DNA from: Hepatocystis sp. ex Piliocolobus tephrosceles
Lineage: Eukaryota > Apicomplexa > Aconoidasida > Haemosporida > Plasmodiidae
Assembly (NCBI GenBank): GCA_902459845.2
Contig: CABPSV020000008.1
Span: 1 to 58,327, forward strand
Direction: 5' to 3'
DNA: 58,327 nt
This document shows, piece by piece, positions 416 through 52,408 of this stretch (positions within the stretch are counted from its first letter, which is position 1; the number at the start of each line of letters is the position of its first letter). A program made the position numbers and the translations under genes. The notes beneath the pieces are model-generated. The model saw only the letters and a program-made list of their open reading frames with translations, was not told the DNA's origin and made no database searches.

Positions 416-2167
416 ATGACAGATTTATATTTTCTTATAAGATGGTTATGTAGAGCAATAGTAAGTTCCCTTTTCGGAGATGTGAATATTATTAATCCAG
501 AGAATGTTCCCTTATATGGATCTGTTATATTTGTTGGTAACCATAACAATCAGTTTATTGATGCTTGTGTATTAATAGCCAATATTCCACGGCAGGTAAG
601 ATTTATAATAGCAGAAAAATCAATGAGACGGGCAGTAATTGGAAAACTAGCAAGTATAGTAGGATGTATAAGTGTAAAAAGACCAGATGATTTAAAATTT
701 AAAGGTATAGGTCATATTTTTTGGGAAAAAGATCAAAAATTAATAAAAGGAATAAACACAAGGTTTAAATTAGATGTACAACCAGGTGATAAATTATTAA
801 CACAAAATCGTATATTTAGTGTAAATAAAATAGAATCTGAGACAGAACTTTATATTTATGATACAATTAATATTGAATGTGATGATATAATTAATGGAGT
901 ATCTTTTCGAATAATCCCTAAAGTAAATCAAACGGAAGTTTATAATTTAGTAACAAATAGTTTAAAAAATGGTGATACTATCGGTATATTTCCAGAAGGT
1001 GGATCACATGATAGAACAAATTTACTTCCACTTAAACCAGGTGTTGCTATTATGACATTATGTGCATTAGCAGACGGAATGGAAGATGTTTCTATTATAC
1101 CTATAGGTTTATCATATTCAAAATTATACCAATTACAAGGTTGTGTAACATTATTTTATGGTGACGCAATTATTGTAAATCAAGATTTATGTAAAGATTA
1201 TAATATTAATAAAAGAGAAACTATAAGTAAATTATTAATAAAGATTGAAGAAGGTATGAGAAGTTGTATGTTAACATCGAAAGATCATAATACAAGTAGA
1301 TGTATTGAATTGTGTGTTAGTTTATATACACCTGAAAGAATGACTATTTCAAAAAATAAAATATATAATAATCTTCAACTATTTTGTAAAATGTTTTGGA
1401 AATTTGGTAATTCAAAAGAAATACAATCTTTATGTTATGAATTAAATTGTTATGAAAAATTATTAAATGCAAATAAAATAAAAGATGATGAAGTATGGAT
1501 GCTTAAACAATCTACTTCAGCTGCTACATTGAAATTTATAGAACATATATGTAGTCTTATTTTTTGTGTAATATTTGGTATGACTTTTTCGTTTTTATGG
1601 TTACCTTTAGTTGCTATATCTATTTATTTGGCTGAAAATCATAGAAAAACATCACTTAAAAATAGTACTGTTAAAATTCAAGGTGGTGATGTAGTAGCAA
1701 GTTATAAAGTTTTAGTGTTATTAGTGTTATTACCAACTTTTAATTTAATGTATGGTTTATTTTTTAGTCTTTATATTTATGAAACATGGTTAAAAAGGAT
1801 TGCATTTATGATAGTAAGTATATGTATATTACCTATTTGTTATTATATAAATTTAAATTATTCTGTACAAATACCAACATTGTTAAGGCAGATGAAAATA
1901 TTATTAAAAGTTATATGTGGTATAATTAATGTATGGAGAGATAATGAAAGAGAGCTTATAAATACAAGACATGAATTACAATTAAAAGTTCGTAATGTTG
2001 TTTCCACATTAGGACATCATGTATCTGATAATTTTTTAGAACAACTATATAGAAATGTACCAAAATTTGTAGTAGATGCTGACACAAAAAGATTAATTAT
2101 GGGTAAAGATGAATGGGTTCCTATTATTGAGCGTTCACAGTTGGAATACAGAGAAGAAATTTTATGA
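416..2167 (+). CDS. GPAT: Glycerol-3-phosphate 1-O-acyltransferase, SCT1/GPT2 type
   Basis: This enzyme transfers an acyl group from acyl-CoA to sn-1 of glycerol-3-phosphate, the first step of phospholipid and triacylglycerol synthesis, at the ER membrane. The frame is an uninterrupted 583 codons. The PlsC-family blocks appear in order: NHNNQFID at residues 42-49 (catalytic His43 and Asp49, with the HANQFVD-like spacing of the fungal SCT1/GPT2 branch), GKLASIVGCISVKRP at about 76-90, FPEGGSHDR at 192-200 (substrate-binding block), and IIPIGLSY at 227-234. Hydrophobic membrane segments lie at about 375-400, 425-450 and 463-485, followed by a C-terminal soluble tail. From memory the characterised P. 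falciparum enzyme PfGAT has about the same length, so the protein looks complete. The start is the first ATG after stop-rich AT sequence. No intron is needed. Confidence 0.93.
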   Translation: MTDLYFLIRWLCRAIVSSLFGDVNIINPENVPLYGSVIFVGNHNNQFIDACVLIANIPRQVRFIIAEKSMRRAVIGKLASIVGCISVKRPDDLKFKGIGHIFWEKDQKLIKGINTRFKLDVQPGDKLLTQNRIFSVNKIESETELYIYDTINIECDDIINGVSFRIIPKVNQTEVYNLVTNSLKNGDTIGIFPEGGSHDRTNLLPLKPGVAIMTLCALADGMEDVSIIPIGLSYSKLYQLQGCVTLFYGDAIIVNQDLCKDYNINKRETISKLLIKIEEGMRSCMLTSKDHNTSRCIELCVSLYTPERMTISKNKIYNNLQLFCKMFWKFGNSKEIQSLCYELNCYEKLLNANKIKDDEVWMLKQSTSAATLKFIEHICSLIFCVIFGMTFSFLWLPLVAISIYLAENHRKTSLKNSTVKIQGGDVVASYKVLVLLVLLPTFNLMYGLFFSLYIYETWLKRIAFMIVSICILPICYYINLNYSVQIPTLLRQMKILLKVICGIINVWRDNERELINTRHELQLKVRNVVSTLGHHVSDNFLEQLYRNVPKFVVDADTKRLIMGKDEWVPIIERSQLEYREEIL

Positions 2168-3498: not shown

Positions 3499-4413
3499 TC
3501 ATTCCCCCTTTTTGTGCATTTTACACTTATTAATAAACAAAAGCAACTGATCATAGGAAGTAACAAAAAAAGTGTAAATCCACATGAAAATAAAAGATAT
3601 AAAAGAATAAAGCGTATAAAAAAAAGGTTTGATTTTTTTTTCATCATTTATTAATGGTTTTTCTTTAAGTCTTTGAAAGATATATTTCATCATATACTTT
3701 TCTTTTTCTAAATGTAATTTTTTTTTTTTTTGTACTAATTCTATTAAATTAATTAGAGAGCTATTTTTATCAATTTTAATTCCTTCTTTTAACACTTCTA
3801 TTGCTTTGTCATATTCACCTAACATAAAATATCCCTTACCTAGCCTAAAATATATTTTTACATTTGTTTTATCATTTTTTTGTGCCAGTAAAGAGTATTT
3901 AACACATTCAGAATATTCATTTAATTTCATATAACCTTGAGCAATATTGCTACAATATGTAGAGTGCATTTTTTGAAATATTTTTAAACGTTCACTAGTT
4001 AATTCGTTTTTTTTTGATAAAATATAATTTATTGATTTTAATCCTCTTTCCCATGTATCTACAGCTCCTTTATAATCTCCATTTTTATATTTTTCATTGG
4101 CGTCATCTTTAGTTTCTTTTTCATTTTCTGAAGAGTTAGTACTTGCTAAATCATTATTAACTTTATTTTTTAATTCCACATATTTTTCACTTTTGTTTAA
4201 ATTGTTAATGTGTTTGGCTTCCCCATCCTCTGTTGTATATGTTGTACATTTATGTTCTTCTGATAAATTACTACTTTTGTTGTTACATGTGACACTGTTC
4301 ACAATTTCACCATTATCTTCACTATTATTATTTTCACTATTATTATTATTATTATTATTATTGTTACTATTATTATTATTACTTTCACCTTTCATAGTAG
4401 AATTATAAAACAA
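3499..4413 (-). CDS. TPR protein with C-terminal membrane anchor
   Basis: The 304-residue frame has a disordered Asn/Ser/Glu-rich N-terminus (residues about 10-105), then TPR helices: KYKNGDYKGAVDTWERGL at 108-125, a second unit around 150-180 (NIAQGYMKLNEYSECVKYSLLA), and a clear third, YFRLGKGYFMLGEYDKAIEVL at 188-208. A hydrophobic helix follows at 264-285, then a short basic tail, so it is probably tail-anchored, facing the cytosol from the ER or mitochondrial outer membrane. The layout resembles FKBP38- or TOMM34-like co-chaperone TPR proteins, but there is no FKBP domain. The first ATG and the one seven codons in (MKGES) are both possible starts. The exact function is unknown. Confidence 0.75.
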   Translation of the reverse strand: MFYNSTMKGESNNNNSNNNNNNNNNSENNNSEDNGEIVNSVTCNNKSSNLSEEHKCTTYTTEDGEAKHINNLNKSEKYVELKNKVNNDLASTNSSENEKETKDDANEKYKNGDYKGAVDTWERGLKSINYILSKKNELTSERLKIFQKMHSTYCSNIAQGYMKLNEYSECVKYSLLAQKNDKTNVKIYFRLGKGYFMLGEYDKAIEVLKEGIKIDKNSSLINLIELVQKKKKLHLEKEKYMMKYIFQRLKEKPLINDEKKIKPFFYTLYSFISFIFMWIYTFFVTSYDQLLLFINKCKMHKKGE

Positions 4414-4792: not shown

Positions 4793-5217
4793 ACTTTTTA
4801 TTTTAAGAGCACTATATATATATATATATATGTTTATGTATTGTGTTTATTCTTAATAACTTTATACATTTTTGCATTTTTGTTTACATGTGCACTTTTT
4901 TAAATTTGGATAAAAAAAAAAAAAAAAAGGATAGATTGGCAGATAGATATATAGAAAGACAATTCTTTGCATGTTAATTCTTTTGAGCACCATTACAATT
5001 ATCTTTTTATAATTACCTTTTGTGTTTTTTTTTCACTATGTAAGTCAAAATGTGTTGCTTAAGTCATAATGGTTCGTTATTGTTTTAAATTTATGAAAAA
5101 AAAAAAAAAATAAATAAAATAAAAAACATAATTAAATATGCAGATGAAATAACTAATGAATAAAAATCTCGGTACATAAACGAGTCTCTCTAAAAGAGTA
5201 TGTTCAAACATATTAAA

Positions 5218-5255
<38 letters not shown>

Positions 5256-5546
5256 AACAAGGTACGTGTACCAATTAAAGAATTTTTTTCAATTTTTTAC
5301 TACATCTTTGTTTATTTTATTTTATTTTTTTTTTTTTTGATGAGACAAATATATAATTAGCTCTTATATTGGCACCATTACAGTCAATTTAATAATAGTT
5401 GTTATAAATCAATAAATTATGATTTAATAAAACAATTAAGATTAAGGTAAATGTTTTCAATGTGAGTTGAAAGGAAAGTTTTTTTTTTTTTTTTTTCTTA
5501 ATAGGTAATGGTGTATCTCGATAACAAAACAGTAAAGAAAGTGTAT

Positions 5547-5739: not shown

Positions 5740-6574
5740 TCAAAAGTAATCATAAGCATCCAAATACTTTAAGCAATTAGTCAGTTTCTCTTTTTGTTCA
5801 TATTCATCCAATCCTGGGTTAACCAAATTTTTTATTTTTAGCATCGAAACATTAGCTGAGCTATCTCCACACAAAAGTATGTCATTTTTATTAAACATTC
5901 TAAAATTGGGGGAGAAATAAAAAAGTGTAAAAATATAAACGTATATATTTATTCAACGCATGAGTATATATATGTATGACTATGTAAACACACATGAAGT
6001 AACAAAAAAAACTGGTCTTACTTTAAAGATAACATTTTAGATGATTCAGCAACATTAGGATAAAATATAACTAGTGGGTCTTTTGAGATAAAATCGAAGT
6101 CCCATAATTCCACTCTTCCATCATCTGCACAACTAAAGAAAGAAGTGGAATTGTTGGGTAACCTGAAAAATAAAAAATGGGTAAATAAATGCATCAATAA
6201 AATAAGCATAACATTAAGTCCATAAACTAACTAAACTAATATGAGGACATTTCATTTTATTAACATTTTTTTTTTTTTTTTTTTTTTTTAACACAAATTT
6301 AACCATAATATATCATTGATCGAGGTAAAAGAGTTTTTCGATTTAAAAGTTGTTATTTGGTTGTTATAAAATTTGTTCCACAATTTGGTTGTACTATCTT
6401 CTCCAGCACTTAAAAAAATATCATGATCGAATGGATTTATTTTTATTTTATTTACAGCTCCAAAATGTGCATAGTAACAATTTAAATAGGATTTTTCATA
6501 GCAACTGTTGCATCTGTATATTATTCCGTTCCGTGTCCCTAATATAGTATAATAACGCAAAAAAAAAAAAAAAA

Positions 6575-6608
<34 letters not shown>

Positions 6609-9600
6609 GGAACAAATAAAAAAAAAGCGAAAAAAACGGAACAAATAAAAAAAAAGCGAAAAAAACGGAACAAATAAAAAAAAGGCGAAAAAAACGGAAC
6701 AAATAAAAAAAAGGCGAAAAAAACGGAACAAATAAAAAAAAGGAGAAAAAAAAAAATAATGTTTTGCCTTATTGAATAGTTCTTTACCCAAGTAGTAATA
6801 AGAATGTATTGGTTTAATTTTTTTTTCAGTAATATTTTCGGTAACATTTGTATAATGATTTAATAGCTCTTGTTCTTTAGATATAGATTTAATATATTTT
6901 TTATCTGTCTTTGTATCATTTACTTCCCCATCCTTTTTTGCTTCTTCGTTATCCAAAGAGGTGTCTGTTTTATTTTTTAAATGTAAACTTGATTGTATGT
7001 TAATGTCATTTGTATTATTTGTTACATTGTTGTTATCTATGTCTTTATATTTATCAATTTGCTCATTTAAATTTTTCGAAATTTTGTTATTATTTATATT
7101 GCTAATAATAAAATTTTTATCATGACGTATATATGTATCTATATCTATGCAACTTAAAGAAGAATTGAATTTTGTGTAAATAAAGTTTTTATTTTCAAAT
7201 ATAAAAGATAAATCTTGGTATAATTTATTTTTTTTATTTTTTATATAAAGTATATGTTTATTTGTTAATTCTTTTTTTATATTCCATTGATACACATGAC
7301 CATTTTCATGTGCAGTATAAAAAATAAGTTCAATTTCATTATTCGCATAATTATTATTATTTTTAAATGTAAAATCATAAATAGGTTCAAAACTGTTTTC
7401 AAAATATTTTTCTATTGTTTCAGATGTTAATAAAGGATACATACCTGTATTAGTAGTTGCAGTAGCAGTAGCAGTTGTAGAGGCAGTGTTACCATTATTG
7501 TTACTATAACTGATAGTATTAGTATTTGTGCCGGTTCTTATATCATAAATGTATATATGTCCATTTGCTAATGCTGCTACTAATATATTAGGGTTATTGT
7601 TAGAATATTTAATTTTCATAACACTCGAATCTAGGTTATACAAAAGTAATGGATACGTTGGATTTATAAAACTAAATACAGCTATATTTCCTTTACTATT
7701 TTGATAAGTACCTATATCTAATGTATTAGAATAACTAGCTGTAATATAATCATCATAAAAATAGTTGGTATCTATAGATGTTACATTTTTTTCTAATTTT
7801 TTATAATAAAAAAGAAATAATTTATTTATTGATATATTTTTTAAATATTGTTTTATTTTATGATTATATAAATAACGTGTTTTTTTATCTTCTCTTTGTT
7901 CATCATTTATCACATTTTCTAAGTTATCTTTATAATGTAACCCGTCAATATTAATGTTACTATCGTATGTATACAAATAATTATCACCACCATCATTTTC
8001 TTTTGTTTTTTTTTTTAGTTTAATTATACTACCATTAACAGAAGTAAAACTTGCTTTTTTTTTTAAAAAGTGGGATATTTTACTTTTTTCTGAGTTTTCA
8101 TTTATCAAAGTGAAAGCTTTTTTTGCTTTTGTTGTGTTATTCATGTTATTATTACTTTTGTTAGTGTTGACGTAGTTTAAATTAGTGCTAGCATGTGTTT
8201 CGGTGCCAGTACCGGTACCAGTGCTAATAGTATTATTGTTGCTACTACTACTATTACTACTACTATTACTACTATTTCTGCTACTTTTCCTACTTTTATT
8301 ATTGTTTATTTTGTTAAAAACGTCGTCGATAATTAACGAGCTGATCTTCTTTATTTTTTCCTCTTTACTTTTTTCTTCAATTATTATATCAAAAAGGGTG
8401 TTACCTTTGTTTATGGTATTAGAATTTGATTGATACGTATTACCACTTGTTTGACCAACATCTACCCCCATCGGATCCTTTCCAATTATGTAATCATTTT
8501 TCATTGTATCAGGTATCCCAGTTGTTCCATCTACATCTGTTTGTTTATCTAGTTTATTTTTATTATATATTAATTTTTTTTTAATTTCTTTTCTGATTTT
8601 GTTTTTGAATTCTTTTGCTCGAATATATTTTGTAATTTTTTTTTTTTTTTTTTTAGTTAAAGTAATTAGATTTTTTTTTATTAAATTAGTCATAGCAGTG
8701 TAATCTAATTTTTCCATATTTTTTTGAGCATCCATTACTTTTGATTCATTTTTTTCTATATCATTCAATTTGTATAATACTTTGTTAATTTTATTAAAAT
8801 TTATTAATTTTTTAAAATTCTTTTGAATTTTTATTTTTATAATAATTTTTTTTTTTTTATAACTAATACTATTATTAGTAAGAGGATCATAATTTTCACC
8901 ATCGAATATTTTTATTTTGTTACACATATCGATCTTTTTTTCTTTAATATAATTTAAATAAATATTTTTATAAATTAATTGTTCATAATAATAAATGTTT
9001 TGTGCTATATACTTTTCAATATCTCTTAATAGTAATATAAATGTTAATGTATTAATATTTTTTTTTTTATTATTTATTTTCCATGGTAATACATTTTCTT
9101 CTTCATTTTCCTCTTCTACAACATTTTGTAACAATTCATTCTCATCAGTTTGTTTTCTCTTCTTTTTAATTATAGATCGTACTAAGTACTCGTCATCACT
9201 CAGACTGTCTAAAAAATGTAAAGCAGAAACAAATCAAATAAATAAGTAAATAAATGAGTAAATAAATAAGTGAACAAATAAATAAGTAAATAAATAAATG
9301 AATAAATAAATAAATAAATAAGTGAACAAATAAATAAGTAAATAAATAAATGAATAAATAAATGAATAAGTAAATAAACAAAAGAGTAAACAAATAAATG
9401 AGTAAGTAAATAAAATAAATAAGTAAATAAATAAATAAATAAATAAATGAATAAGTAAATAAATAAATAAACAAAAAATGAATAAGTAAATAAATAAATA
9501 AACAAAAGAGTAAACAAATAAATGAGTAAGTAAATAAATAAATAGTGAAAGAACGGGTGGGTTTAAAAAGTGTACATATATATATGTATATATTTTATAA

Positions 9601-29320: not shown

Positions 29321-32300
29321 TTATAAGGGTAAACCATATATAACAACAGCTGAACCTGTCGTATTTGGTAGACGACAATATTGCTTAGCTTCTGTTAATG
29401 CTTCTGTCATACTTAACCAAGTATATTTATTATTTTGATTTATATTAAAAATATTTTCGTTTAAAATAATATCATTTTGTTTGTACATATGTTGAAAATG
29501 ACTATAAAAAAATTTTTTTTTTTTTAAATATGTATACAGTTCCCAATCTAAAGTGATAACACTATCTTCGTTGTTAATTAATAGCATTTGATTAGCGTTA
29601 TTAATTTGTTCATTGGGTAATTCGTTGGGTAGTTCGTTAAGTAGTTCATTGTGTTGAGAATTATGTTTTTGTTGTTGTTCTTCACTATAGCTGTTCTCAT
29701 ATGTATACATTTTGCTGCCATAACAGCGGTTTAAAATTTTGGTAAAAAAACAAAAACTAATTTTCGAGTCATTCATAAGTTGAACTGTTTTATATTTCTT
29801 ATTTGATCCAAATAAAGTATAACAATTAGGTTGTGTCCATTTCCAAAAAAAATTCTGAGTTAAACCATCAACTTCTCCATCTGTCACGTTCCATAAATTT
29901 CCAAAAATAAAAATACATCCACCAACAATATAATCAAATGGAGTTCCCCAAGTATCAAAATCAAATCCGTGAGAAGAAACTAACCCCGAACTACATCCGA
30001 TTAAAAAAACACAACAATTAATACCATCTTTATTACTATCATTTTCATCATTACTATATACTTCATTTTTTTCCATATCCTTCTTTATTATATCAGTAAT
30101 ATCAGTCACGTCAGTATTGTTACTTACATCTTTTATGTTACTATTAATAGAACTCGTTCTACTCATTTTTTTTACATTGTTAAAATTTCCAATACCTACA
30201 GTTTTTCTTTTCATGTCCGTTTTTTCTGATAGATTATTAGACAATGTTAAATTCAATACACAGCTTGTTCTTTTATAATTTTTATCTGTTGACAATTCTA
30301 TCTGTTTTGTGTTTACATATGTTGTTTTGCGATGTGATTTTCGTTTATTATTTAATTTGATATTATGTATGTTAGTTACGTTACTATGTTCACGAGTTGC
30401 ATCTATAGATACTCTGCTTTTACGACTTTGTCCAATTTTTGTACCAGATTCACCTTGCTCATCAGTATAACAATTTCTAATAGCATTTTGTATCATATTT
30501 TTTTTTATATATTGTTCCCCTCCTTGATGTCCACAATAAATATATAAATCATCACTACATAAATGTTTTAGTAAGGTTTGTTCACATGGTACTTTACCGA
30601 AATAACCATTCCAATTTTTGTGTTTATACTCTTTTTTATTTTTAAAAAATATAAAAGGATAAGTTGCATCTTCTGCTCTTTTTAAATCTCCATTAGGATT
30701 AATAACAAAAAAAATTCTACTTTTTTTAGGATCGATTAATCTTTTACTTTTTATATAATAAGGAACATATTTTATGTTTTTAATTTTTGACACTTCTGAA
30801 TTTTGTTCAAGATCAGCAGAATAACTTCTTCTTTTTCTACTAGTGTTTTTGTCATTGTTTTTGTTTCGTTGTTCATTCTCAGATCGGTGGTCTTCACATT
30901 TTTTAGAAAAACCTACTAAAGATGTTACAAATAACTTACTTTTGTTTTCATTTGAATAGGATTCCGATTCTGATTCTGATTCTGATTCTGATTCTGATTC
31001 TGATTCGCTGACACTTTTATTTTTAAATTTTCTGAATTTACCACAACTGTATTTGTCTGATTTTACAGATTCGTCACTATCTTCACAATATCCCATGATG
31101 TTATGCATATTCATTGATTTTCTAGCATTTATAAAAATTGTTCTTAGTTCATTTTCGTTTTGCATTAATTCGACTGAAGAATCAGAAGAATATGTATAAT
31201 TAGATGAATGAGAAGAGGAGTGAGAAGAAACGGAGTGAGCAGAAACGGAGTGAGCAGAAACGGGAGGTGAATTAACAGATGGTACAGAAGTAGAATTTCT
31301 TTTGTTATTATTGTTTGTAAAAATTGTAGCAGAAGAACGTGTATTTTTATTTTTATAGCTAGTTTTTTTTTCATGAGAATTTAAAAATGATATATTTTTA
31401 TCATATATTTGTAGATGATTTTCGTACGTATTTTTTTTTTTTTTTCTTTCTTTTTTTTTATCTAATACATTCTGTTCTTTAGGGTTTGTTTTTTTTTTAC
31501 TAAAGGGATTTAAAAAGGATTGTTCAATGAAGGTGCTTTTTCTCGAGTGTTTTTTTTTATTGTCACTATTGTCGATAGTGGTAATACCACTAACAATAGC
31601 AGTATCACTAGCAATAGCAGTACCACTAACAATAGCAGTATCACTAGCAATAGCAGTATCACTAGCAATAGCAGTATCACTAGCAATAGCAGTATCACTA
31701 GCAATAGCAGGATCACTAGCAATAGCAGGATCACTAGCAATAGCAGTACCACTAGCAGTGCCAGTACGACTTACTTCATTCACGGTGTTAAACAAATTCT
31801 GCATCTGATCTTTATCATCGGTAATAATAAAGTTATACTTTTTATTTATATTTGGTTCGTTTATATATTTAGTACAATCTAAAAAAGAGTACTTCGTGTT
31901 ATCTGTTTTTTTTTTATTCTTTGTATCAACAATTACATTAATATCACGATAAGTATCAAGTGGCTTCTTAACTTTATTATCAAAACAGTATCTATCACTT
32001 AAATCTTTTTTTGAGTGTTCTCCAACAATATTAGCATATGTTTTATCAGGGCTACAATTAATAGTGTAACTATTTGTATCGTTATTTGATGATGCATTAT
32101 CCCACATAGTTTGTTTTTCTTTTAAATTTATTTTATCATTATATTTCAAATTTTTATTTAAAAAAGAATAGTCTTTTCCGAATATATTATCAACACTTGC
32201 TCTTTTTCTTTTTTTTTTCTCTTCTATCGATTCAGGCTTATTTAGTTGATCTATTTTATCATAAATGTTGATATTTGCTTTTGTATTATTTATTGATTTT

Positions 32301-35300
32301 TTTATTATGTTCATACCTGTACTTGCTCTAGTACTTATACATTTTTTTTTATAAAATTCGTCATTTCGTTTGTCATCATGAGTTGTAAATTCGTTATATT
32401 GTTCATTATGGCTGTTTTCTTTTTGATCAGATAAACTCTCCATTGAATTTGTCTCATTTAGTAATTCATTTATATCTTCTATCAATTCATTTTTCTCATC
32501 TTTTTTTATTTTTTTTAACAACCGTTCATATAAAAATTTAGTGACTGTTTTATTTATACCTCTGACTATATAAGAGCTTTTTAATGCATCGAAATTTTCA
32601 AAAGGTAGTCTATTTAAATTACCATGAATATATACAATTATAGGATTTTTTCTTATATTTTTTTGTTCTACATTTTTTATATATATATATTTTTCCTTAT
32701 CATTATCATCTACTATCAATTCACACTTCAAAATTTGAGTAATAAACGAGTTAGTAATTTTATTAAAAATGTCAAACATATGTTTAAAATTTACTTGGTT
32801 CCATTCGAATATATCAATCATTATATTAAATAAATACATTCTTAATTTTAAAAAAGAAAATAGTAATTCACCTTGATAGCATTGTTTTTTTAAATCCAAA
32901 TATTTTAAATAATTATTGTTTTTTTGTGTTTTGTGCATGTCAGTGCATATGCTGGTTCTACAAGAGCCTGTGTATGCACTTGTATATACACTCGCTCGTG
33001 CACTTGTAGTTACTCCAACATCGAGTTTGTCTCTTTTTATAACATCATCGATGTTTATCGCACAGCTTACAGTACTTCTTTTACTTTTTTTTTCCACATT
33101 ATTATATTCATTTTTATTGTTAGACCATTCGAAAAGAGTATTTTTCGTTGGATTTAAAAACTCATATACAGTTAAGTCGATTTTTTTTTTACTTGTAATA
33201 TCGCATTTATTTAAATTATGATTTATTATATTAAGTGTTTTTCGTCTGTTATTTTTATGACTATTATTTGCATTACCAATGGTATTAATATTAGTAGTAT
33301 CTATACAAGTTGACACTACATTTTCATTTTCTATCATAATACTACATTCTGATTTGTTATTTAATGAGATATTATTTTTTGTTTTATTATAATTATCAAG
33401 TTTGGTATATTTTTGAATAGTCTTACGTTTATTTTTACAACCTGAATCATTTGGTTGTGAATTACCCAATATAGTAGATGTCGAACTGATACTTCTTCTT
33501 TTTGTTCGGTCCTTTGCATGATCTGGTACTTCTCGTGTTTGCTTATCCTCATTCACTAATATCGTCTCTATATCTTTATTACTTAATGGTAAATATGAAG
33601 TCATTATTTTTTTATCATTTTTTATTAGGTTTACATTACAACTTTTTCGTCTTTTTGATTTTTTTTCATGTATATTATTATTTTTTTGTTCTAAAATATT
33701 TTTAAGAGAAGAGTCCTGTTCATTATTAAAACTAACTTCTTTTAAAGGAGTAGTAGTACTATTATATGGTGTTAAATACTTTTTTTTTACATTAGTAATT
33801 TTTATATTACTATTTTTTATAACAATAGAAAATACAGTTAAATGTAAAACCATATTTATTATATTCATATTATCCCAGTATACTACAGGAAGTAATACGT
33901 GTTTCCAATTATTAAACCAAGAAATAATATCAAGCATATTTGAATAATAATATAAAATGACAAAAATGTCAAAATTTGTTTTTAGGTACATTTTCTGATT
34001 ATGTACTAATGAGATGTTATTGTATATGTAATTTGGGTCTTCATCACATGAGTTGCCACTGTTGTAGTTGTCACTGTTGTAGTTGTCACTGTTGTAGTTG
34101 TCACTGTTGTATTTGTCACTGTTGTGTTTGTCACTGTTGTGTTTGTCACTGTTGTGTTNNNNNNNNNNNNNNNNNNNNNNNNNNNNNNNNNNNNNNNNNN
34201 NNNNNNNNNNNNNNNNNNGTGTTTGTCACTGTTGTGTTTGTCACTGTTGTGTTTGTCACTGTTGTGTTTGTCACTGTTGTGTTTGTCACTGTTGTGTTTG
34301 TCACTGTTGTGTTTGTCACTGTTGTGTTTGTCACTGTTGTATTTACCACTGTTGTGTTTGTCACTGTTGTATTTTCCACTGTTGTATTTACCACTGTTGT
34401 AGTTAGCTTGACCGATTGGACTAACGTGACTAACATTATTAATGTCGCTACTCCCTGAAGTTAATAGCCCTAACCGTTTTTTCACATTTAACGAAATCAT
34501 AGGTGAGGATATTAATTTACAAATAGATAAACCCAAACTATTTGAGATTTCCAAATTTAATAATTTTAAATGTTGCTCTAATGTATATCTATTATTCCAC
34601 CATAAGTCTATAACCGTTTTTAAGTTGCTACTATTTCTATCTACTTTTTTCGAATCGTTTAGAATTTCACACATTAATTTTATCATGTGTTGATACTGCT
34701 TTAATACTTTTTCTAACTTATATATATAATTCCATTTTTCTTTATATGTATATTTTTCTATACTTAAATTTATTTTATCTACATGAAAATATTCATACCT
34801 TTTTTCATTAATATATATATCTGCATTTTCGTATATATTTAAAAATAATTTTATTTTTTTTAAGTTATTTTTAATATCGCTATTTAGACATCGTTTATCA
34901 CATGATGGTTTCAACACGCTATAATGTACTTTGTTGTATACAAAACCCATGAAGTCTTCGATTATATATGTATCACCTCTGGTATCGCCATTGGAAAAAG
35001 TGTTACTACTTTTATGCCATCCTTTTTCATATTCAGATTTCAAGTTAGAGATGTAAAACCATTTGCTCATCTTTTCATAAAAATTATAATTCTCTTTTTC
35101 GTTTGACAAACATTCATATTTTTTGTCATTTAATAATGTCATTTCTCTTGTGGATATAATATTATGAACACTGACATTATCCGGATTAATAATTTTATGT
35201 TGATCAAACTGTACCATACTATTTTTATTGTGTCCTATGTTTTGAATAAACTCCTTTATAATATTTACCAACAGTAATAGATAATTTTTAAAACATCTAC

Positions 35301-38300
35301 CTACATATAAATCACTCTTATCATGACTTATAGATACTATTGAATAATCCCAATAAAAACAAAAATCACTTACAGTTATATTATTATTAACACATTCATC
35401 ATAATTACAAATAAGCCCAGTGTTTAAAAAATTATTGTTATTGTTTATGTTTTTTCTATAATAAGCTTTATGATTTATTTCGTGATTAATATTATTCTGA
35501 ATTGTATAAAATATTAATTCATTTGTGTATAAGTAGAGTAGAGAAAGTAACTTTCGAAAATATAATTTTATTAAATAAAAAATTTGTTTTGCGTCGCTGT
35601 CATGGGAGGTGTTACAGTTAGAGTTATCATTTTTATTGGTATCGTGAATGTTGTTAGTTTGATTGGATTTGCTGACGTTATAAACAGATACAGGCAATGG
35701 CACTGGCGGTGGCACTGGTGCAGACACATAAGACTCAACTATTTGCAATATGATTAAATTGTTTTTTATATTTTCTATAAAAAAATATATAAAATCCATG
35801 AAGTATTGTGCAACCTTTCTTAGTTCATAAGTATAACAGTGATTATAGGTGTAATTTAATAGTAGTGTTAAATGTATTAAAATGATTGGAAAAGCATATG
35901 CTGTTCTATTATACTTATTATTAATATTATACTTATTTGTTATAATATATTTGATAAATTCATACAGTTTATTTTGGATTTTTTTTTGACTATTTTTTTG
36001 GCTTTTTTTTTTGCTATTTTTTTGACTATTTTTTTGGCTATTTTTTTTGCTTTTTTTTTTGCTATTTTTTTGACTATTTTTTTGGCTATTTTTTTGGCCT
36101 TTTTTTTTGTTTTTTATGTTAATTATGAATTCATAGCAAACGGTTATCACTTCGAAATAAGAGCAACCTTTTGATGGATATAAAAAAATTTCCACCAATT
36201 TGAGGAAAGTAGTTTTATCTTGTTTGTCACTACATTTGTGGTTTTTACTACTACTGACCCCATTACTACTGCTAACGTTAATACTACTTTCCTCTCTTAC
36301 GTTGTTTCGAATCAACATATCAATATATGTATTATAATTTTTATTTCCATGAAAATAATTAGCACATATTTCGTTTAAGGTATTTTTAGTAATATTAAAA
36401 ATATCAAATATTTTAAAAAATAAAAAAAAAAATATATTACTAGAACAATCATTAGATGTTGTATTTAAATGCCTCTGTTTTTTTATAGTATAACTACAAT
36501 CATCACAATATATATTTTTTATTTTTAAAAATAATAAATTAATGTAATATAATAATATTTTTAAAAAATATGTATTTATTCGTTTATAATTATATTTAAA
36601 CCACCTTTTATTTATGTAATTCTCTAAAAAAATTAAGTTATGTTGAAAATTATAATTTAAATATAAATAACTAAGCACTGAAATATCATCGAGTTCGAAT
36701 GAATATGTTCTAAAAGAAGAGTAATACATATCGTCATTATATATTGTGTCCGATACGTAGTAGTTACCTGTTTTTTTATAATCTATACATTCGTTTTGTT
36801 TTTCCGTTAAATCGAAATTTTGATTTTTAGCCTTGATAGGGTTATTATTGTTACTACTACTGCTACGACTGATACTACTACTACTGCTACGACTGCTGCT
36901 ACGACTGCTGCTACTATTGCTGTTGCTACTGCTGCTACTATTGCTGTTGCTACTGCTGCTACTATTGCTGTTGCTACTGCTGCTACTATTGCTGTTGCTA
37001 CTGCTGCTACTATTGCTGTTGCTACTGCTGCTACTACTGCCACATTCACACTTATCCATTCCTAAATTGTGTACACACTCTGTCACAAATTCATTAACCA
37101 TATACCTTATTTTATTATCGTCATTTATTACAACGTTAAATATGTCAGTATCAGTGTTATTTATAATAAATAACTTTTCAAAAAAAAAATGAAAACTTGA
37201 CATTTTATTTTTTTTATTACAGTTGTTGAAACACTTTAGAAATTCATCTAATCTATTTTGTTTTATGCTTTTACTTACTTCGCTTTTTTCGCTTTTATAA
37301 TTTTTAATATTATTATCTATAGTGTTATTTATAGCGCTATTTATAGCGTTATTAGTATAATTACTTGTGTTTTCAAGTAACGTAAGTTTTGTCATCGGTT
37401 CAGTATCTTCATTTTTGTCTGTGCTGTAGACATATGTGTTGTCATATGATTTTTGTTCGCTGTCACCGTTTAAACAGGTACTACTACTATTACTATTGTT
37501 TTTATTATTATTACTGTGATTGCCATTATTGCAATAGTAGTAATAGCGAGATTGCGCTTTCCTAAACAACAGTAAAGAATAAAAGTAATATATCTCTCTA
37601 ATATATTTAGGAGACAAAAAAGACATATGATTTGAACTGATAGTTAAGGTATTTATATATTCTAAAAAAATATTTAAAAAATGTTTATATTCGTAAATAT
37701 GTTTTTTTGTTAGGTAGGTATTAAGTGGGGTCCTTACATAATTAATATCTATAAAATCTTTTTCTTCATATATTTTAAAATTGTTGACGTCGTTTATTAC
37801 CTCGTTTTTTTTGGCATTAGTAGAAGAGTCAGTGGTAATATCTTCAGTGTATGGACTATTAGTAGCGATAGTAGCAGGTTCATTATTACTTTGTTTATAT
37901 ATTTCCAAATTATTATTCAAGTTTTCAAAAAAAAGTTCTTCTTGAGTTAATAATTCAATTCTTTCCTTTCCACTAGTTAAAATAATATTAATTAATAAAA
38001 AATAAGTATGAACAATTTCAGGTAAATAAATTAAATTACATAAAAATAAAATGCCTTTTTTTAAGTAATAATAACTGAGTAAACAATTATTAACTTTATA
38101 TAAACATTTTGCTATATATTTATAATATTTATTAATAAACTTTATATGATAAAAAATGTCTTTATTTAAAAAAAGGTTACAAAAAAGGTTTTCAAAATTT
38201 AGAAAAATGATTTTATTGTTTATTTCGGACTCGTCAAAGCTATCAGTTTCGCTGTTATAGCGGTTGTTACTGTTGCTATAACGTCTGTTACTGTTGCTAT

Positions 38301-41300
38301 AACGTCTGTTACTGTTGCTACAACGTTTATCACTAATACTAAGACGTCTGTTGGTGGTACTAGCACGACCATTACTACAAACGCCACCATCTGTGTCGTT
38401 TTTTTTTTTAATTGTTGTTTTTATATCTAAATCAAACTCATATATGGGGTTCTCAAATTTAAGAGAAAAAAAGTTAGACGAAATACTACAAACAGCAAAA
38501 TATTTTATCATTGTATATTTCATAAGTGTTATTATACTAATTACATATGAATCGACATATAATACAAGACCTATATATTTATTTTTTTGTTTTTTGTATA
38601 TATATTTTATTATATTAAAATATAAAAAAATGTTATTTTTAAAAAAGTTTCTATCGTTTTCATATTTTTTTTCAAGTATATTTAAATCAGTAATGCACTC
38701 TTCAAATATTTTGCTTTCTTTTTCATAATAATATAAATAATCAAACTTTTTTAAAAAACTATTTTCTGTATTATCTATTTTGTTGTGATAATTAGGACTA
38801 AGATCCTTTTTATTAGTTGAAACATCAATAGGGATTTTGGAAATATGTTCTATTTTACACTCAGACAATGTTCCAATTTCTTTTTCCATCATAGTGCCGT
38901 TGTTATTATATAAACTATTTGTAAGCATTTTTACTTTGTTCTTATAAAACTTTTTTTTATATAAATTTTTTTTATATAAATTTTTTTTATATAAATTTTT
39001 TTTATGTAAATTTTTTTTATGTAAATTTTTTTTATATAAATTTTTTCTTTTTATATGTGCTTCAAATTTCAAATTCATTAAATTCAGTTTATAAGTGTCG
39101 AAAAAAAAAGTAGATAAATATAAATTTTCGACACAAAATTCATGGCAAAATTTTTCTATGTATTCAAAAAAATGTACATAATACTTAAATAAGTTATTAG
39201 CACAATTTAAAAAAATCCTATTTTTCTTATTTTTAACTATTTTTTCAAGACATAAAAATGTTAGATAAAATATGGATATACAAGTTATTAGTGTTTGCAT
39301 ATAGTTATGTAATTCGTTGTAAATTTGTTTCTTATCGTCTTGATTAGCAGTGGTAGTGGCATTGGTAGTTGCATTGGCATTGGTAGTTGCATTGGTAGTT
39401 GCAGATGGATTGTTAACAGAGTTTGTGTTAGCACTAGAGTTTGTAACATTATCATTCATATCTGTTGTTATTTTCGTATAAATCGCAGTTAAGATGTATT
39501 TTCTTGTATATTTTTTTAATTTATCTGAACGGTTTTCAACATTTTCATTTACTTTTTTTTTGTATGTACATCTTTCATCACTATTATTGCAATTAATAGT
39601 ATTTATGTCAAAAGGGGAATAATGTTTTTCACTGAATATGTATACTAACCAAAACCTAGAAGTAAAGACAATACATAACATTAAAATATTGACACAATAA
39701 TGGTATAATTTATACATATATGCTACTTTGTATATTTCACATAAAAAAACAATTAATTTTATATTAATCTGTATAACTAAATTATTACCAAAATTAACAT
39801 TAGTAAAAATATTTCCATAATATATGTCATACATATGATTAAATATTTCAAAAATTAAATATATATTATTTTTTAGGTCATCTTCCTTATATAATTTGTA
39901 AGAAATGTTAGGATACACATTTTCTGTGCTATACGTATTAGAGTTTGTTTTGGTTTGGTAAGTTTTATTATAAGTATGTGATTCAGAATGGGTGAAATTA
40001 AATGATGAAAGATGTCCCTTTTGTTCAAGCTGTTTTAGATGCTCAAAGTGACTGAAGTTTTTACATTCGATACTTCTACATTCGATGCTTTCAGATCCGA
40101 AGTTTTTACATTCTGAGTTTTCATATTCTGAGTTTTCATATTCTGAGTTTTCATATTCTGAGTTTTCACATTTTGTATTAAGTGCAACCGTTTGATTACC
40201 TTTCCTATCAAATATATAAAATTCTAATTGAAAAATGTAGAGAATATTATAAATAGATAAGTTTTTTTTTTTTATATTATATTTTTTGTTGAAATAAAAG
40301 TATATAATAATATAGTATAGATTTAACATATATTTATGTATATATTTATTAATTTTTATATACTTTTTTTTTAGTTTTATTAAGTAATTTTTATTAATAA
40401 TTAATAAACTGTTATAAATATCTTGAGCACTTTGATTATAATTTAAATTATTTAAGTTGTTATGTTCGATAGTTAAAGGATGGAATAGTTTTAATTGGAA
40501 GTTATATATATTACATATAAAATAATTCTCTTCATTTGTCATTTTGTTATCCTCCATCAGGTTTATGTCACTGTCATTACTGTCGCTACTGTCATTACTG
40601 TTACTACTGCCATTACTGTCGCTACTGCCATTACTGTTACTACTGCCATTACTGTTACTACTGCCATTACTGTTACTACTGCCACTACTTCCCATAATAT
40701 TGCCACATTCGAAATTGTTTTTTTTAAAAAATAGAACACCATCATCACTATTATTATAAGGGACTCCTGTTAAATTTTGTCGATTGACAATTGTCCGCTC
40801 AAATTGTGAAATGTGTTTTATATTATCAGTAACAAATTGTACATATTTGTTACAAAACTTTTCTTTTAAAATATTATTCAGGTTAAAAATATAAAATATT
40901 TCTATATTTTTGTTAATAGTATTTGATGGTTTGCGTAACGGTATACTGGACTGATGGTACTCCTCTGTGCATGATTCCTCTTTCCATTTCTTACCAATAC
41001 ATTCCTTTTTAGCCCATAAAAAGCAATGATAGTACAACTTATATAACATATACAAATTATACATAAAAGAAAACCGATTAAGCATTTCTATATTATTATA
41101 TATATAACTATATAAAGTTTCTATTTTTATTATATAGTAGCAATTTCTAAGAACTTGTTTATAATATTTTTCTATATTCATAGTATCAAATAATTTTATA
41201 ACAAATTCTAAAAAAGCAAAATCAAAATCATTTGTATAATTTGTGTATTCAATTAAGGTAAAACTATATTCAGATGCTTTTGAACTGACATCAGAATCAT

Positions 41301-44300
41301 TACTATATTTATCAGATTGTTTTAGTCCTATTGTTTTCAATTCTTCAGCAATGTTTATTTTGTTTGTTATATTTGGGCTTATACCATACCCTGTATTTAG
41401 GCTTGTATTTAGGCTTGCACTTCGACTTACATCACTACCTACATATGGACCTACATGGTCCCCATCCTTTTCATGAGCAACCTGTTTACTTAAGGTATCA
41501 TCAACTTTAAATTCAAAAGAATCAATAATATTTCTGTTTTTTTTAAATTTTTCATAAAATAGTGTATTAAAATTCTCTCTTAAAATATTTTCATATTTTT
41601 GTGTACATACATTTTTAAAAAAAATGAAAAAAAAACAACATTTACAAAAAACAAAGTTTAGTTGAATGTATGTAATTAGCAATTCGTCAATATCTATGTT
41701 AATTTTTGTTTTTGTATCTGTTTTTGTATTTGTATCTGTTTTTGTATTTGTATCTGTTTTTGTATTTGTATCTGTTTTTGTATCTGTTTTGTTTTTTATT
41801 ATGTTTGACTTAAGTGGAGTGCAGTAATTTATACTTTGCTCACATAACGGAACACTCATTATATCATTATTATTAATAAACAATTTTATTTTTTCAATTA
41901 TTTCTTTTTCTAACTGATTAAAATTAGAAACATTATTTACAATATGAAAGATGTTATAAAATTCAAGATTATTATATTGCTTCACTAATTTTAATATATC
42001 AACACACAGTTTGTTAAAAAAAAAGAATAAAAACTTAAAGAAATAGATAAAAATTTTCGTAACATATCTTGATAAATATTCATAAAATGATAAAAAAAGT
42101 AATGTGTTTATATGGATGATCAATAAATTGTTAATTATTTTTGTTTTGGTTTTGGAGTATTTCATCCGTTTGTTGTCATTGTCGCTGTCATTGCTGTTAC
42201 TGTCGCTGTTACTACCACTTCCACTGCTACTACTACCGCTACTACTACTACTACCGCTACTACCACTTCCATAATCAAAATAAAAAAAGTATTTCCATTC
42301 ATTTGTATCAAAAAAACTATTGTAAATTTCTTTATGAATAACTTTTAAAGAGTTAGAATCATACGAAGATTCTTTATCGGTATATTTTTTTTTATAGTAT
42401 GATATTTTTTTTTTTATTTTTTTGTTTAAGTACAACACTTTAGATTTTATGTACAAATTAAATATATGTCTAATAATTGTACAACTTTGTATATTTATTT
42501 TACTACTACATATATTTGCCTGTTGATATGAATTATATATATACGAAATAGAAGAACGTAAATATTCTTTTGTGTTATAATCACAACTTTTCATGATATT
42601 ATTTAATACGTTATTAACTGTTAATATAATTTTTTTATAATTTTTTTTTTTGAAATAATACAGCACTTCCAAGTCTATAATGATGAACAGTAGATCAAGG
42701 TGTGGAATATAATAGTTACTTAAATAAGTTTTTCGGAATTGTTCATTCGGATTTGTTACGTTGTTGTAGTTATGCCCGGATAATATATTATTTCTTCTGC
42801 TGTAATCAAACTTTGGTGTTTTATACATATCTTCGTTATCACTATTAATTTCATAGCCGTTATTATCAGTATTATGTATATATGCTTTAACAGTTTTTCG
42901 TTTAGGTTCATAAATATTAGGAGTACAATTTGTAAATCCATCTACCTGTTTATCATATATATCGTTTACATTTTTGTTTATACTATTTAATATATTGTTA
43001 TCATGAAATAATAAACTTTTTCTTTTTGTACGTACATTACCAAGTATTATGTTCTCTTCATTTTGTTCTATATCAGTTACAGACACATAATCAATGTTTG
43101 TTTTTCTTTTTTTAATATTTTCATTATTTAAAAATACAGGCATTAGTCCACCTATACTCATTCTTTTTTTCCTTTTATTAAAACTTGGCATGTTAAGTTC
43201 GTCGCTATATTTATAATTATATTCATTAGAATTGTCACTTAGATCTTTACCTATATTATCACTATATTTAATTTTTTTTTCAAATTTTGTTATACTTTCA
43301 CGTTTATATATTTCCTTTGTAACATTGTTGTCAATATATTTTATAGGTGTTACAGAACTTATATCCAATTGATCAGTATTAAAAAAATCATCTTGTACAT
43401 TTTTTAGTATATTATTATAATTGTCTGTAATTAGAAAATCATGGAAATTGTGAAATCTGAATGAAGTATATATATGTATTGGGTTAAAAGGTAGACTAAC
43501 AAATTGTATATATATAAATTTTAAAATTTCTAATAAAAAATAGAAACTATTTTGTTTTTTAATAAATTTTATTATTTTTATAGTAGTATTATAAAATAAT
43601 TCGAAAAATGTGTATTTCATTTTTGTTAACATGTTTAATGGTATTTCTAATAGCCATTCCCATGCACATATTACATTAATAACAATTAAAAATGTGTTTA
43701 AAAATAAAGTTTCAACAAATTCATCTTTATCAGAAATAAAAAAATTTGTATGATCATTTTTATAATTTTTATCATTCAAAATGGTGTATATTTCGTCAAG
43801 TGTTAACATATGGGTTTGTGAATGTAACAAAGAACCGGTATTTCCGGTGGTAATATCAGATGTACATGAGCTTCTTCTAACTTTTACACTTTTCCTTTTT
43901 TTAACAATCGTATTAACAAAAGGAATAATATTTTTATGTTTTTTAAATTTTTCAATATCATAGTCTAACACAAAACTAATATATTTATCAAACATGTTGT
44001 AAGAAACTATAATCAAATTCGATTCACATATATTGTTTAATATGTCGTTATAATCTAGTTTAATAGATATATAACACAAAAAACTTAAATACAGAAAACA
44101 TACTTTTAACAAATTTAGAAAGATATTTTTACATACATATATATTAAAATTAGCCTCATATTCTTTACAAATTTTAAAATAATTCAATAAATGGTCACAA
44201 ATAAATATACATCTTTTTATACATAAAATAATATTTTGACATAAACATTTAAAATCAATATTTATTTTATTTATAATGTTTTTATTTATATAAAACACAG

Positions 44301-47247
44301 ATTGTCCAAATAGTGGCATATCGTCTTGTTTTTTTTTTTCTTCTTTTTTTTCATCGTCTGTTTGGTCATCTGTATATGATTTATAATCTCCTCGTCTGCC
44401 ACTCTCTCTACTTCTTCCACTCTCCCTACTTCTGCTACTCTCCCTACTTCTTCTACTCTCCCTACTTCTGCTACTCTCCCTACTTCTTTCACTCTCCCTA
44501 CTTCTTCCACTCTCTCTACTTCTTCCACTCTCCCTATTTTTGTTATACTTACACTTAGTCGAAATTCCTGTGCTTTGTCTTCTTTGCACACTACCACCCA
44601 GTTTTGTTAGTTTTTTTTTTTTTCTGCTTTCATTTTCTTCATTTATTTCATTTTTTAAAATTATATATTTTAATGGAGAATGATAGGGTTTAAAAATTTT
44701 CATTAATTTTTTATTTTTATAATTTTTTTTTTCTTTTAACTTAGAAATATACATTTTTAAATGTAAATCATTTTTATTTTGTTTATTCTCTATACACAAT
44801 AAGTTTGAACAAAAAGAAATAAAATTCTCATTGTTTTTATCAATCGTATATATATATTTTCTAAACACATTTTTATCTGTCTCAGAAAGTAATTTTATAA
44901 CATCAAAATTGGAATAAAACATACTCATTTTGCTTATTTTTATTGTTAACCCATAATATACATCATGGTCATATGTGTATGGAGGATCACGACACACGTC
45001 ACTACTTATAACATTTTCTTTTGTTTTGTTTTCTACAAATTCGTCTATACTTACAAAAATATACAAACATTCTTGTATTTTTTGGTATATCTTTTCAAAG
45101 GACGTAAATGAATATTTAGTTTTGTTGCCGCTAGTTATGTCGCTATTTATATCGCTATTCATTCTGCTACCCAGGCCACTACCCATGCCACTACCCATAC
45201 AACTATTGCGGTTATTTTTTATTCCTATGCTAACTCTAGAGGTTGAACCAGTACACGATATACCACTGTTGCTTAACACACCTTCTACTCCGCTTTTATC
45301 TATATAAAGCTTTTTAAAATATTTATAAATATGTGTAATAATAGCAATAAAATTTAAACTGTTTTCATTGTTACTTAAAAAGAACATTTTTTTATCATTA
45401 TTTGTGTTACATATTAGTTTAGAAAAAAGATAAAATATGTAAGAAATTGATTTGTAAATAATTTCGGCTGATATGTTTTTAGATAATATTAAACCGTTTA
45501 CAAATGTTTGTATAAATTTTAACAACTCCTTTAAGTATACTGGTGCTATATCAATAAAATTGTATATATGTATATTGTTTTTGTTATTATCTTTTTTTTT
45601 TTGTAGTTGTTGTTGTGTTGTGTCTTGTATGGAGCCTTGTATTGTGCCTTGTATTGTGCCTTGTATTGTGCCTTGTGTTGTACCTTGTATTGTGCCTTGT
45701 ATTGTGCCTTGTATTGTGCCTTGTGTTGTACCTTGTATTGTGCCTTGTAGTAATAATGGTATTTCACTATTTCGGCATGATAATGTTAACTTTTCTTCTA
45801 ACAAAAAAAAAGTAAAAATAAATTTAAATATTTTTAAAGTATAATTTACATTTTTCAAATCAATTAAGAAAATTTTTTTTAATTCATCAAATATAATGGT
45901 CCAAATAAGTTTTTTATTATTTTTATTATTTGTTAAAAATATACAATCGTTTTGTAACTCGTCAACTTTTTTTTCATCTTGTATTGTTTGTTCTGTTTTT
46001 GGTAGTTGTCCTTGTATTTGTTTACGTTGTGATACAGTATCATAATTATGTATTTTATTTTTTAATAAAGTATTTTGTTCCTCCGTTTTGGTATTATTCA
46101 TATTTTTATTTTTATTTTCGAAAAGTTTTATATAAAAGAGCATTTCGTAAATATGAAAATAAATTATTATATGGTCAACTTGGAGTGTAGAGAGAAAAGG
46201 GTAGAATATATTAAAATCGTAACAAGCAATTTTAAATAAATTTTTTACAACGTTTAAAAACATGTTATAAGTTTTATCAATTGGAAATAAATAAAAACTA
46301 AATATATCATTATCTATAGTTTTTAATTCATCATGTTTGAACAGAAACAAAAAAGATTTTTCTTGTTTTTTCAATTTTGTTAAATTTGTTTTTTCAAAAT
46401 TATTTTCAAAACTGTTACTATAGTCTATATGTATATTTTCTTTGATTTGGTTTGATGATTTATCACTTTGTTCATTATATTTTATCCATATATAATTATA
46501 TAAGTTTTGTTCTGTTATATCTTTTTCTATCACACTAGAAGATAATGTATTTGTTAAGTTTGTTGAAGGTGTAGGTTTTACTGGTTCATTATTTATAATA
46601 TTAATACTATGTTGTTTTTTGACAATTTTTATAAATTTTTGATTTTCATTTAATAGTATCATATTAAGTTGTAATAACAAAACTTTTAAGTTATCATGTG
46701 CTTCTTTTTCTATCATATGTTTTATAACAAAATTAATTTTTTTTTTTTCTTTAATAGAAAAATATATAAGAATATTATATAAATTTATTAGAAAGGCACA
46801 CCTAAGTAATTTCAAATGTAACAATAAATCAACCATCTTAAAATAGTAATAAAATAACATTATCAGTTTATTTTCTTTTAATAACAAAAACCAAAAATGT
46901 GTAATATATCTTAAAATTAAAAATAAAAAGTCGAGATATTTATAATTTTTTGTTGTATTCATTTTATTTAATACCGATTCGAATATATAAAATAAGTACT
47001 TAGGAAAATTGTTACTACTACTATTAGTAGTAGTGGTAGAATTACCATCTTTATACATCTTTATTAATTCATTATAACTTAAATTTTCTATCAAACTTTC
47101 CTTATTAAATAGTTCAAAAAATTGTGCATAAACATCATCATTATAATAGTTGGTGTTTTTGTTCACCAACCCTGTATCTATACCTTTTAAAACGTTGTAC
47201 ACTATCTTGTCTAATTTGTTATACACATTTGATTGATTTTTATTCAT
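29321..47247 (-). CDS. Separase (peptidase C50), giant single gene broken by a gap
   Basis: Separase cleaves the cohesin kleisin at anaphase. The C50 domain is near the 3' end: INPNGDL, WNGYFGKVPCEQTLLKHL, the catalytic His in YIYCGHQGGEQY (codon 30527-30529), then the catalytic Cys in LIGCSSGLVSSHGFDFDTWG (codon 29993-29995), and NLWNVTDGEVD. Canonical separases have GHGAGE after the His; here it is GHQGGE. The 5' 13 kb is helical sequence broken by low-complexity repeats, as expected for the N-terminal solenoid. Two open frames (34006-47247 and 29321-33991) are one gene: in the NSDKH frame of the repeat flanking the gap, translation passes straight through NSCDEDPNYIYNNISLVHNQ into the MYLKTNFDIF frame. 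The known sequence gives at least 5,958 residues plus five per missing repeat. No intron is needed. It starts MNKNQSNVYNK. Confidence 0.93.
30958..31010 (-). repeat. Coding SE-dipeptide repeat
   Basis: GATTCT-type hexamers encode an alternating Ser-Glu run in separase, between its repeat-rich middle and the peptidase domain. It resembles a casein-kinase-2 type acidic phosphosite cluster. Confidence 0.85.
31580..31765 (-). repeat. Coding 18-base repeat (IASDTA)
   Basis: About ten copies of an 18-base unit (ACTAGCAATAGCAGTATC on the plus strand) encode IASDTA/IASDPA/IVSGTA in separase. All six frames are open, which yields several false frames. Confidence 0.9.
34052..34403 (-). repeat. 15-base minisatellite (NSDKH) spanning the gap
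   Basis: The plus-strand unit GTGTTTGTCACTGTT encodes NSDKH. Variants near each edge give NSDNY, NSDKY and NSGKY. Copies occur on both sides of the 60-N gap, so the unresolved sequence is most simply more of the same array. Confidence 0.95.
34159..34218. other. Assembly gap of 60 Ns inside separase
   Basis: The gap sits within the NSDKH minisatellite. The codon before it is complete (CAC, His), while the sequence after it resumes at the second base of a Lys codon, so the missing length must be 1 modulo 3 (10 + 15n bases if repeats are perfect). Sixty is therefore a placeholder, not a measured size. Confidence 0.97.
35975..36116 (-). repeat. Coding KNSQKNS/KKS repeat
   Basis: Irregular 12- to 15-base units encode a Lys/Asn/Ser/Gln run of about 40 residues in separase. 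It is a basic, low-complexity stretch. Confidence 0.85.
36850..37043 (-). repeat. Coding serine-rich repeat (SSSSNSN)
   Basis: GCTACTGCTGTTGCTACTATT-type units encode about 60 residues of Ser with regular Asn in separase. AGC/AGT codons dominate, giving a local G+C rise. Confidence 0.88.
38940..39052 (-). repeat. Coding 15-base repeat (KKNLY/KKNLH)
   Basis: About seven copies of a TTTTTTTTATATAAA-type unit encode LYKKN and LHKKN in separase. Confidence 0.87.
40565..40690 (-). repeat. Coding SNGSSN repeat
   Basis: 18-base units (GCCATTACTGTTACTACT-like on the plus strand) encode SSNSNG repeats in separase. Confidence 0.87.
44395..44545 (-). repeat. Coding SRESGR repeat, RS/RE-like
   Basis: About eight copies of an 18-base unit encode SRESGR/SRESSR in separase, a basic-acidic-serine mix similar to RS domains of splicing factors. 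It is unusually G+C-rich for this gene. Confidence 0.88.
45610..45752 (-). repeat. Coding 12-base repeat (QGTI)
   Basis: About eleven copies of GTATTGTGCCTT encode QGTI/QGTT in separase near its N-terminal third. Confidence 0.9.
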
Positions 47248-49733: not shown

Positions 49734-52070
<2,337 letters not shown>

Positions 52071-52408
52071 AATTAAAATAAAAACAGACAACGAAAAAAA
52101 AGTGGGAAAAGTGGGGGACGTAAAGAAAGTAGAAAAAAAAAAAAAAAAAAGAAGAAGAAGAAACAGGATTTACTTAAGAAAGCAAAAAAAAAAAATATAT
52201 ACAAGTTATAAACTTTTTATTTATGTACGTTTGATTTAAGTATAATTTAATTATAATGTTTGTGTTAAATCACAAATAAGAATGATTTGTCATACGAACT
52301 TGCATTAGTTACGTTAATCATTTTATTATTTTGCAAAATATGCATATCGAAGTAATTGTTAAAATGGTATAAAATATTGTGTGTACAGTAAATTGTATTC
52401 GAAAAAAA

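Follow-up and report, generated by a model that had tools for sequence, protein, structure and literature searches.

Separase is the enzyme that allows sister chromosomes to separate, and the locus described here raises the question of whether it is encoded by one exceptionally long gene or by two genes that meet at an assembly gap. The window, i.e., the whole stretch of 58,327 nucleotides that was analyzed (G000:C8:1-58327, from an assembly of 12.39 Mb in 611 contigs), contains only one run of N, and a mechanical list of open reading frames gives two frames beside it, 34006-47247 and 29321-33991. A sequence-only reading had joined both frames and the gap into one separase gene, and this claim was borne out by the collinearity of all 11 orthologues compared, the register of the repeat at the gap, and the residue numbering of PF3D7_0809600 of Plasmodium falciparum. 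The minus strand from 47247 to 29321 is almost certainly one gene, read as a single open exon and encoding one separase (Table 1).

Table 1. Features of the separase locus in the window
Feature	Position	Strand	Details
Upstream part of separase gene	47247-34219	-	Start codon at 47247; 4,343 codons, stop-free; NSDKH repeats at the gap end
Tandem array upstream of gap	34219-34400	-	15-bp units (NSDKH/NSGKY); 12.1 copies
Assembly gap	34159-34218		60 N; true length of 10 modulo 15 expected if the array stays in register
Downstream part, NSDKH frame with C50 peptidase domain	34156-29321	-	1,611 codons plus stop at 29321
Tandem array downstream of gap	34051-34155	-	15-bp units (NSDKH/NSDNY); 7.0 copies
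ATG of apparent 1,556-aa frame	33989-33991	-	Internal codon; Met in 0 of 11 orthologues
C50 domain, His half (LCSDDLYIYCGHQGGEQY)	30479-30802	-	Predicted catalytic His codon, 30527-30529
C50 domain, Cys half (CVFLIGCSSGLVSSHGF)	29870-30019	-	Predicted catalytic Cys codon, 29993-29995

The identity of the protein is indicated by its downstream piece, which matches the Pfam family Peptidase_C50 (PF03568; E value of 2.5e-27, 96.5 bits versus a cut-off of 27.8); the protease sits C-terminally according to the Pfam position, and one C50 locus was found in the assembly. The same piece matches the solved separins 5u1s_A (E value of 1.5e-16) and 7nj1_A (E value of 1.2e-10), which we take to be the yeast and the human enzyme, respectively, and its motifs GHQGGEQY and IGCSSG align to their His and Cys motifs. 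The aligned His and Cys (GCSS), presumably the catalytic residues of the separase family, are invariant in the window copy and the 11 orthologues. A profile of four of these orthologues reached the solved separins via the C-terminal protease only, and the His stretch taken by itself was weak (8.4 bits). Judged from its sequence, the protein is a predicted separase that has a C50 domain with the His/Cys pair. Long stretches of simple composition interrupt the protease domain (29324-31150, minus strand).

The reading frame across the gap can be chosen from three candidates. The frame ending at 34006 had been described as reading NTTVT after the gap, with the repeat before the gap in the NSDKH frame, and translation confirmed both observations. 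After the gap, the NTTVT frame begins at 34158 and terminates at 34006, the third frame stops after 3 residues, and the NSDKH frame (from 34156) reads HNSDKH...NSCDEDPNYIYNNISLVHNQKMYLKT..., starting with HNSDKHNSDKH, and meets no stop until 29321. By base composition alone, a random run of 5,954 codons should contain about 574 stops; none is present in the two frames. The NSDKH frame does run stop-free into the C50 frame, as had been claimed, but openness as such fails as a criterion, since a second frame also passes the repeat without a stop and only one of the three is closed, and it is homology that picks the frame.

The repeat itself constrains the length of the gap. Both flanking arrays have a period of 15 and 0% indels, and among the gap lengths tried (0 to 120), those that keep the arrays in register are 10, 25, 40, 55, 70, 85, 100, and 115, all of them 1 modulo 3. 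As register needs a length of 10 modulo 15, and hence of 1 modulo 3, an unbroken array would rule out the written value of 60 as the exact length; a gap of literally 60 bases (0 modulo 3) would break the frame. A second copy of the array was not found by the DNA search of the assembly, which skips simple repeats and placed the pattern only at C8:34124-34338, and each gap flank was found once in the assembly, with no other contig that resolves the gap length. The shortest positive in-register gap (10 bases) yields 5,958 residues (4,343 + 4 + 1,611), the minimum given by the sequence-only reading, and a gap of 55 bases yields 5,973; a collapsed overlap at the gap could give slightly fewer residues than 5,958. 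Taken together, the evidence supports the view that the apparent gene break is an assembly artefact.

Comparison with Plasmodium orthologues had been named as a check of the joined gene, and it showed that all 11 orthologues carry both pieces in one chain. A search with the upstream piece returned 11 proteins of 4,909 to 5,479 aa, all from Plasmodium and all with PF03568, namely, those of P. vivax, P. coatneyi, P. knowlesi, P. fragile, P. inui, P. malariae, P. cynomolgi, P. gonderi, P. relictum, P. gallinaceum, and P. chabaudi adami (P0001 to P0011; P0011 stands for 16 sequences). UniRef names all 11 separase, and NCBI lists seven as C50 peptidase and four as hypothetical protein. The upstream piece aligns from residue 1 (10 of 11) or residue 7 (1 of 11), its N-terminus MNKNQSNVYNKLDKIV resembling MIRKESNIYEKLDRIV of the orthologues, and the alignment ends at residue 4255-4278; after 9 to 35 orthologue residues, it resumes in the same order and on the same chain at residues 40-48 of the downstream piece. 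The identity between the window copy and each of the 11 Plasmodium species is 55 to 62% (3,202 conserved columns from 4,022 gap-free ones), and in an unrooted tree the window copy sits on a long branch (0.53), with that of P. chabaudi adami almost equal (0.51); the window may belong to a further Plasmodium group or to an allied genus. With the downstream piece as the query, whose length limits exclude full-length relatives, scoring was confined to the 7,987 candidates that had the most words in common with it; among them, one protein was recovered, P0012 (1,249 aa, C50, 3% coverage), which was excluded from all later counts, whereas all 11 relatives of the upstream piece were kept. A giant separase outside Plasmodium was not found when the C50 region of P0010 served as the query, which returned only P0010 and the other ten. 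Among the returned sequences, whose names are shortened, none was visibly labeled as P. falciparum, P. ovale, or P. berghei. For P. falciparum, a published report lists the C50 peptidase PF3D7_0809600 as changed at residue 4557 and at residue 5162, with chromosome positions 1,817 bp apart (PMC6105667); the 605 codons between these residues correspond to 1,815 bp, in agreement with a frame that has no interruption.

A separase split into two genes, one for an N-terminal protein that terminates at 34006 and one for a C-terminal protease that begins at 33991, is what the two frames of the mechanical list would suggest at face value, but we regard it as highly improbable. For the upstream frame to extend to 34006, the gap length would have to be 0 modulo 3, and this would break the repeat register. 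Moreover, the post-gap NSDKH frame matches all 11 orthologues (E values of 2e-43 to 2e-33), while the NTTVT tail and the third post-gap frame match none of the 11 at E values up to 10; before the gap, the frame in which the upstream piece is read matches 11 of 11 (E values of 2e-56 to 2e-50), and another frame gave one chance match only (E value of 7.2). The second ATG is preceded by conserved codons: the stretch YNNISLVHNQK ahead of it resembles YNTLSIVNNQK and similar sequences of the orthologues, with a weaker resemblance in P. relictum and P. gallinaceum, and the residue at the position of the Met is Y, S, or D in all 11. This conserved block and the missing Met indicate that 33991 is not a start.

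The repeat could also lie within a spliced intron, so that the protein would lack the NSDKH tract, an explanation in whose favor the linker at the array can be cited, which has at least 110 residues here versus 9 to 35 in the 11 Plasmodium orthologues. Its composition argues otherwise. The G+C content of the array (38 to 40%) exceeds that of the whole gene (25%) and of the two flanking intergenic stretches measured (about 20%) and is unlike that of an intron or a spacer; in addition, the coding frame is open through the repeat on both sides of the gap, and we therefore give this explanation very little credence. A true frameshift at the repeat, making the gene a pseudogene or a broken allele of the strain, would agree with the written gap of 60, which literally shifts the frame, but it is the least probable explanation of all, given that the units are 15 bp long and show 0% indels in some 19 copies, so that their gain or loss preserves the frame, that both long frames lack stops, and that the assembly yielded a single C50 locus and each flank a single time.

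A single gene implies a protein of giant size. With at least about 5,950 residues, the window copy exceeds each of the 11 orthologues in length, and the expectation that it would be among the largest separases holds for this set (5,958 versus 4,909 to 5,479). In the 12-way comparison, 3,376 + 1,256 window residues (about 4,630) fall in columns common to at least 9 of the 11 orthologues, so that the giant size is already known for the genus, and 515 + 217 window residues are present in no orthologue. Twelve of the 20 listed window stretches of at least 15 residues that are common to no more than two of the 11 orthologues appeared repeat-like by eye. With an entropy filter (window of 12, 2.2 bits), 1,367 residues of the window copy were classified as low complexity versus 490 to 1,050 in the orthologues, and 4,587 versus 3,873 to 4,844 residues were outside such regions; tandem arrays with a period of at least 3 account for 2,072 bases in the two pieces, i.e., about 690 codons. 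The proposal that the excess is mostly simple repeats is thus correct relative to Plasmodium but not relative to 7nj1_A. As far as the alignments indicate, the window copy combines an ordinary separase core of the Plasmodium type with additional repeat.

The upstream part is tied to separase only through its Plasmodium relatives, since it has neither a Pfam family (E values up to 1) nor a solved relative: the search against solved structures returned no separase, with best E values of 0.49 for the whole piece and 0.17 for the 773 pre-gap residues. In separases, a long helical-repeat region precedes the C-terminal protease; AlphaFold2 models of these 773 residues (mean pLDDT of 35.2, mostly helix) and of the C-terminal 1,200 residues (mean pLDDT of 31.7) were too poor for fold comparison. 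Both underlying alignments had 12 rows with the orthologues at full length, and an apparent misplacement of some columns at the ends may have lowered model quality. About 3,400 upstream residues are in columns common to at least 9 of the 11 relatives, and the upstream part exceeds a whole solved separin chain in length by far. A 2011 survey reports securins in Metazoa and Fungi only (PMC3195147). The upstream part might be a haemosporidian-specific arm that supplies in cis the restraint given elsewhere by securin, but we consider this unlikely.

We propose that a 15-bp coding repeat expanded in a linker that is variable among the relatives and that the assembly failed to cross it, the 60 Ns written in its place making the two halves appear to lie in different frames. 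The joined product would be a single haemosporidian separase of about 5,960 to 5,980 residues if the gap measures 10 to 70 bases. By analogy with the separase family, the C-terminal protease would be restrained until anaphase and would then cut the cohesin kleisin, whereupon the sister chromatids part, and the long N-terminal part would act as a scaffold and regulator; what the comparison itself shows is that the protein forms one chain, which frame is read, and that the active-site motifs of C50 are present. According to a review, cohesin and separase are conserved across apicomplexan genomes (PMC8072463), and no functional study of a Plasmodium separase was found by title in the literature searched. 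A candidate cohesin kleisin is present elsewhere in the assembly at L003 (G000:C472), with a Rad21/Rec8 N-terminal domain (E value of 3.8e-10), and the C-terminal family of Rad21/Rec8 had no match in the assembly. The longest frame printed at this locus carries a long MNNS repeat.

With respect to the surroundings of the separase gene, its upstream neighbor encodes a RuvB-like (TIP49) ATPase (50841-52091, minus strand). In P. falciparum, RuvB1 presumably adjoins PF3D7_0809600, which would be synteny with the TIP49 neighbor here. Among the remaining frames of the window, domain matches were obtained to an acyltransferase (416-2167, plus strand) and to TPR repeats (3499-4413, minus strand), and WD40-type beta-propeller matches below the family cut-offs were obtained at 6288-9134 (minus strand).

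The main consequence is a correction of the gene model. Automatic annotation would give a giant protein that is cut short, next to a small separase of its own, and the uncorrected model could suggest a separase fission that does not exist. The locus exemplifies a coding repeat that expanded inside an otherwise conserved cell division enzyme. Since the relatives carry the same gene in one piece, the window gene is ordinary apart from its length; it represents a known giant separase and adds no new mechanism.

The closest known systems are the Plasmodium separases, which have the same order of conserved blocks in one chain, a similar N-terminus and C50 domain, and the retained His and Cys; the window copy differs in being longer through low-complexity inserts, including the NSDKH array. 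PF3D7_0809600 of P. falciparum is likewise a single gene, whose product has 5,162 residues or more according to the published report (PMC6105667). The solved separins 5u1s_A and 7nj1_A (1,596 and 2,160 residues, respectively) match the window copy at the His and Cys motifs, and a weak third stretch at the C-terminus also aligns with 5u1s_A (-0.1 bits). Between the predicted catalytic His and Cys, 5u1s_A has few residues, whereas about 177 are found in the window copy and about 125 in P. gallinaceum. Compared with 7nj1_A, most of the extra length of the window copy is genus-wide sequence and not repeats.
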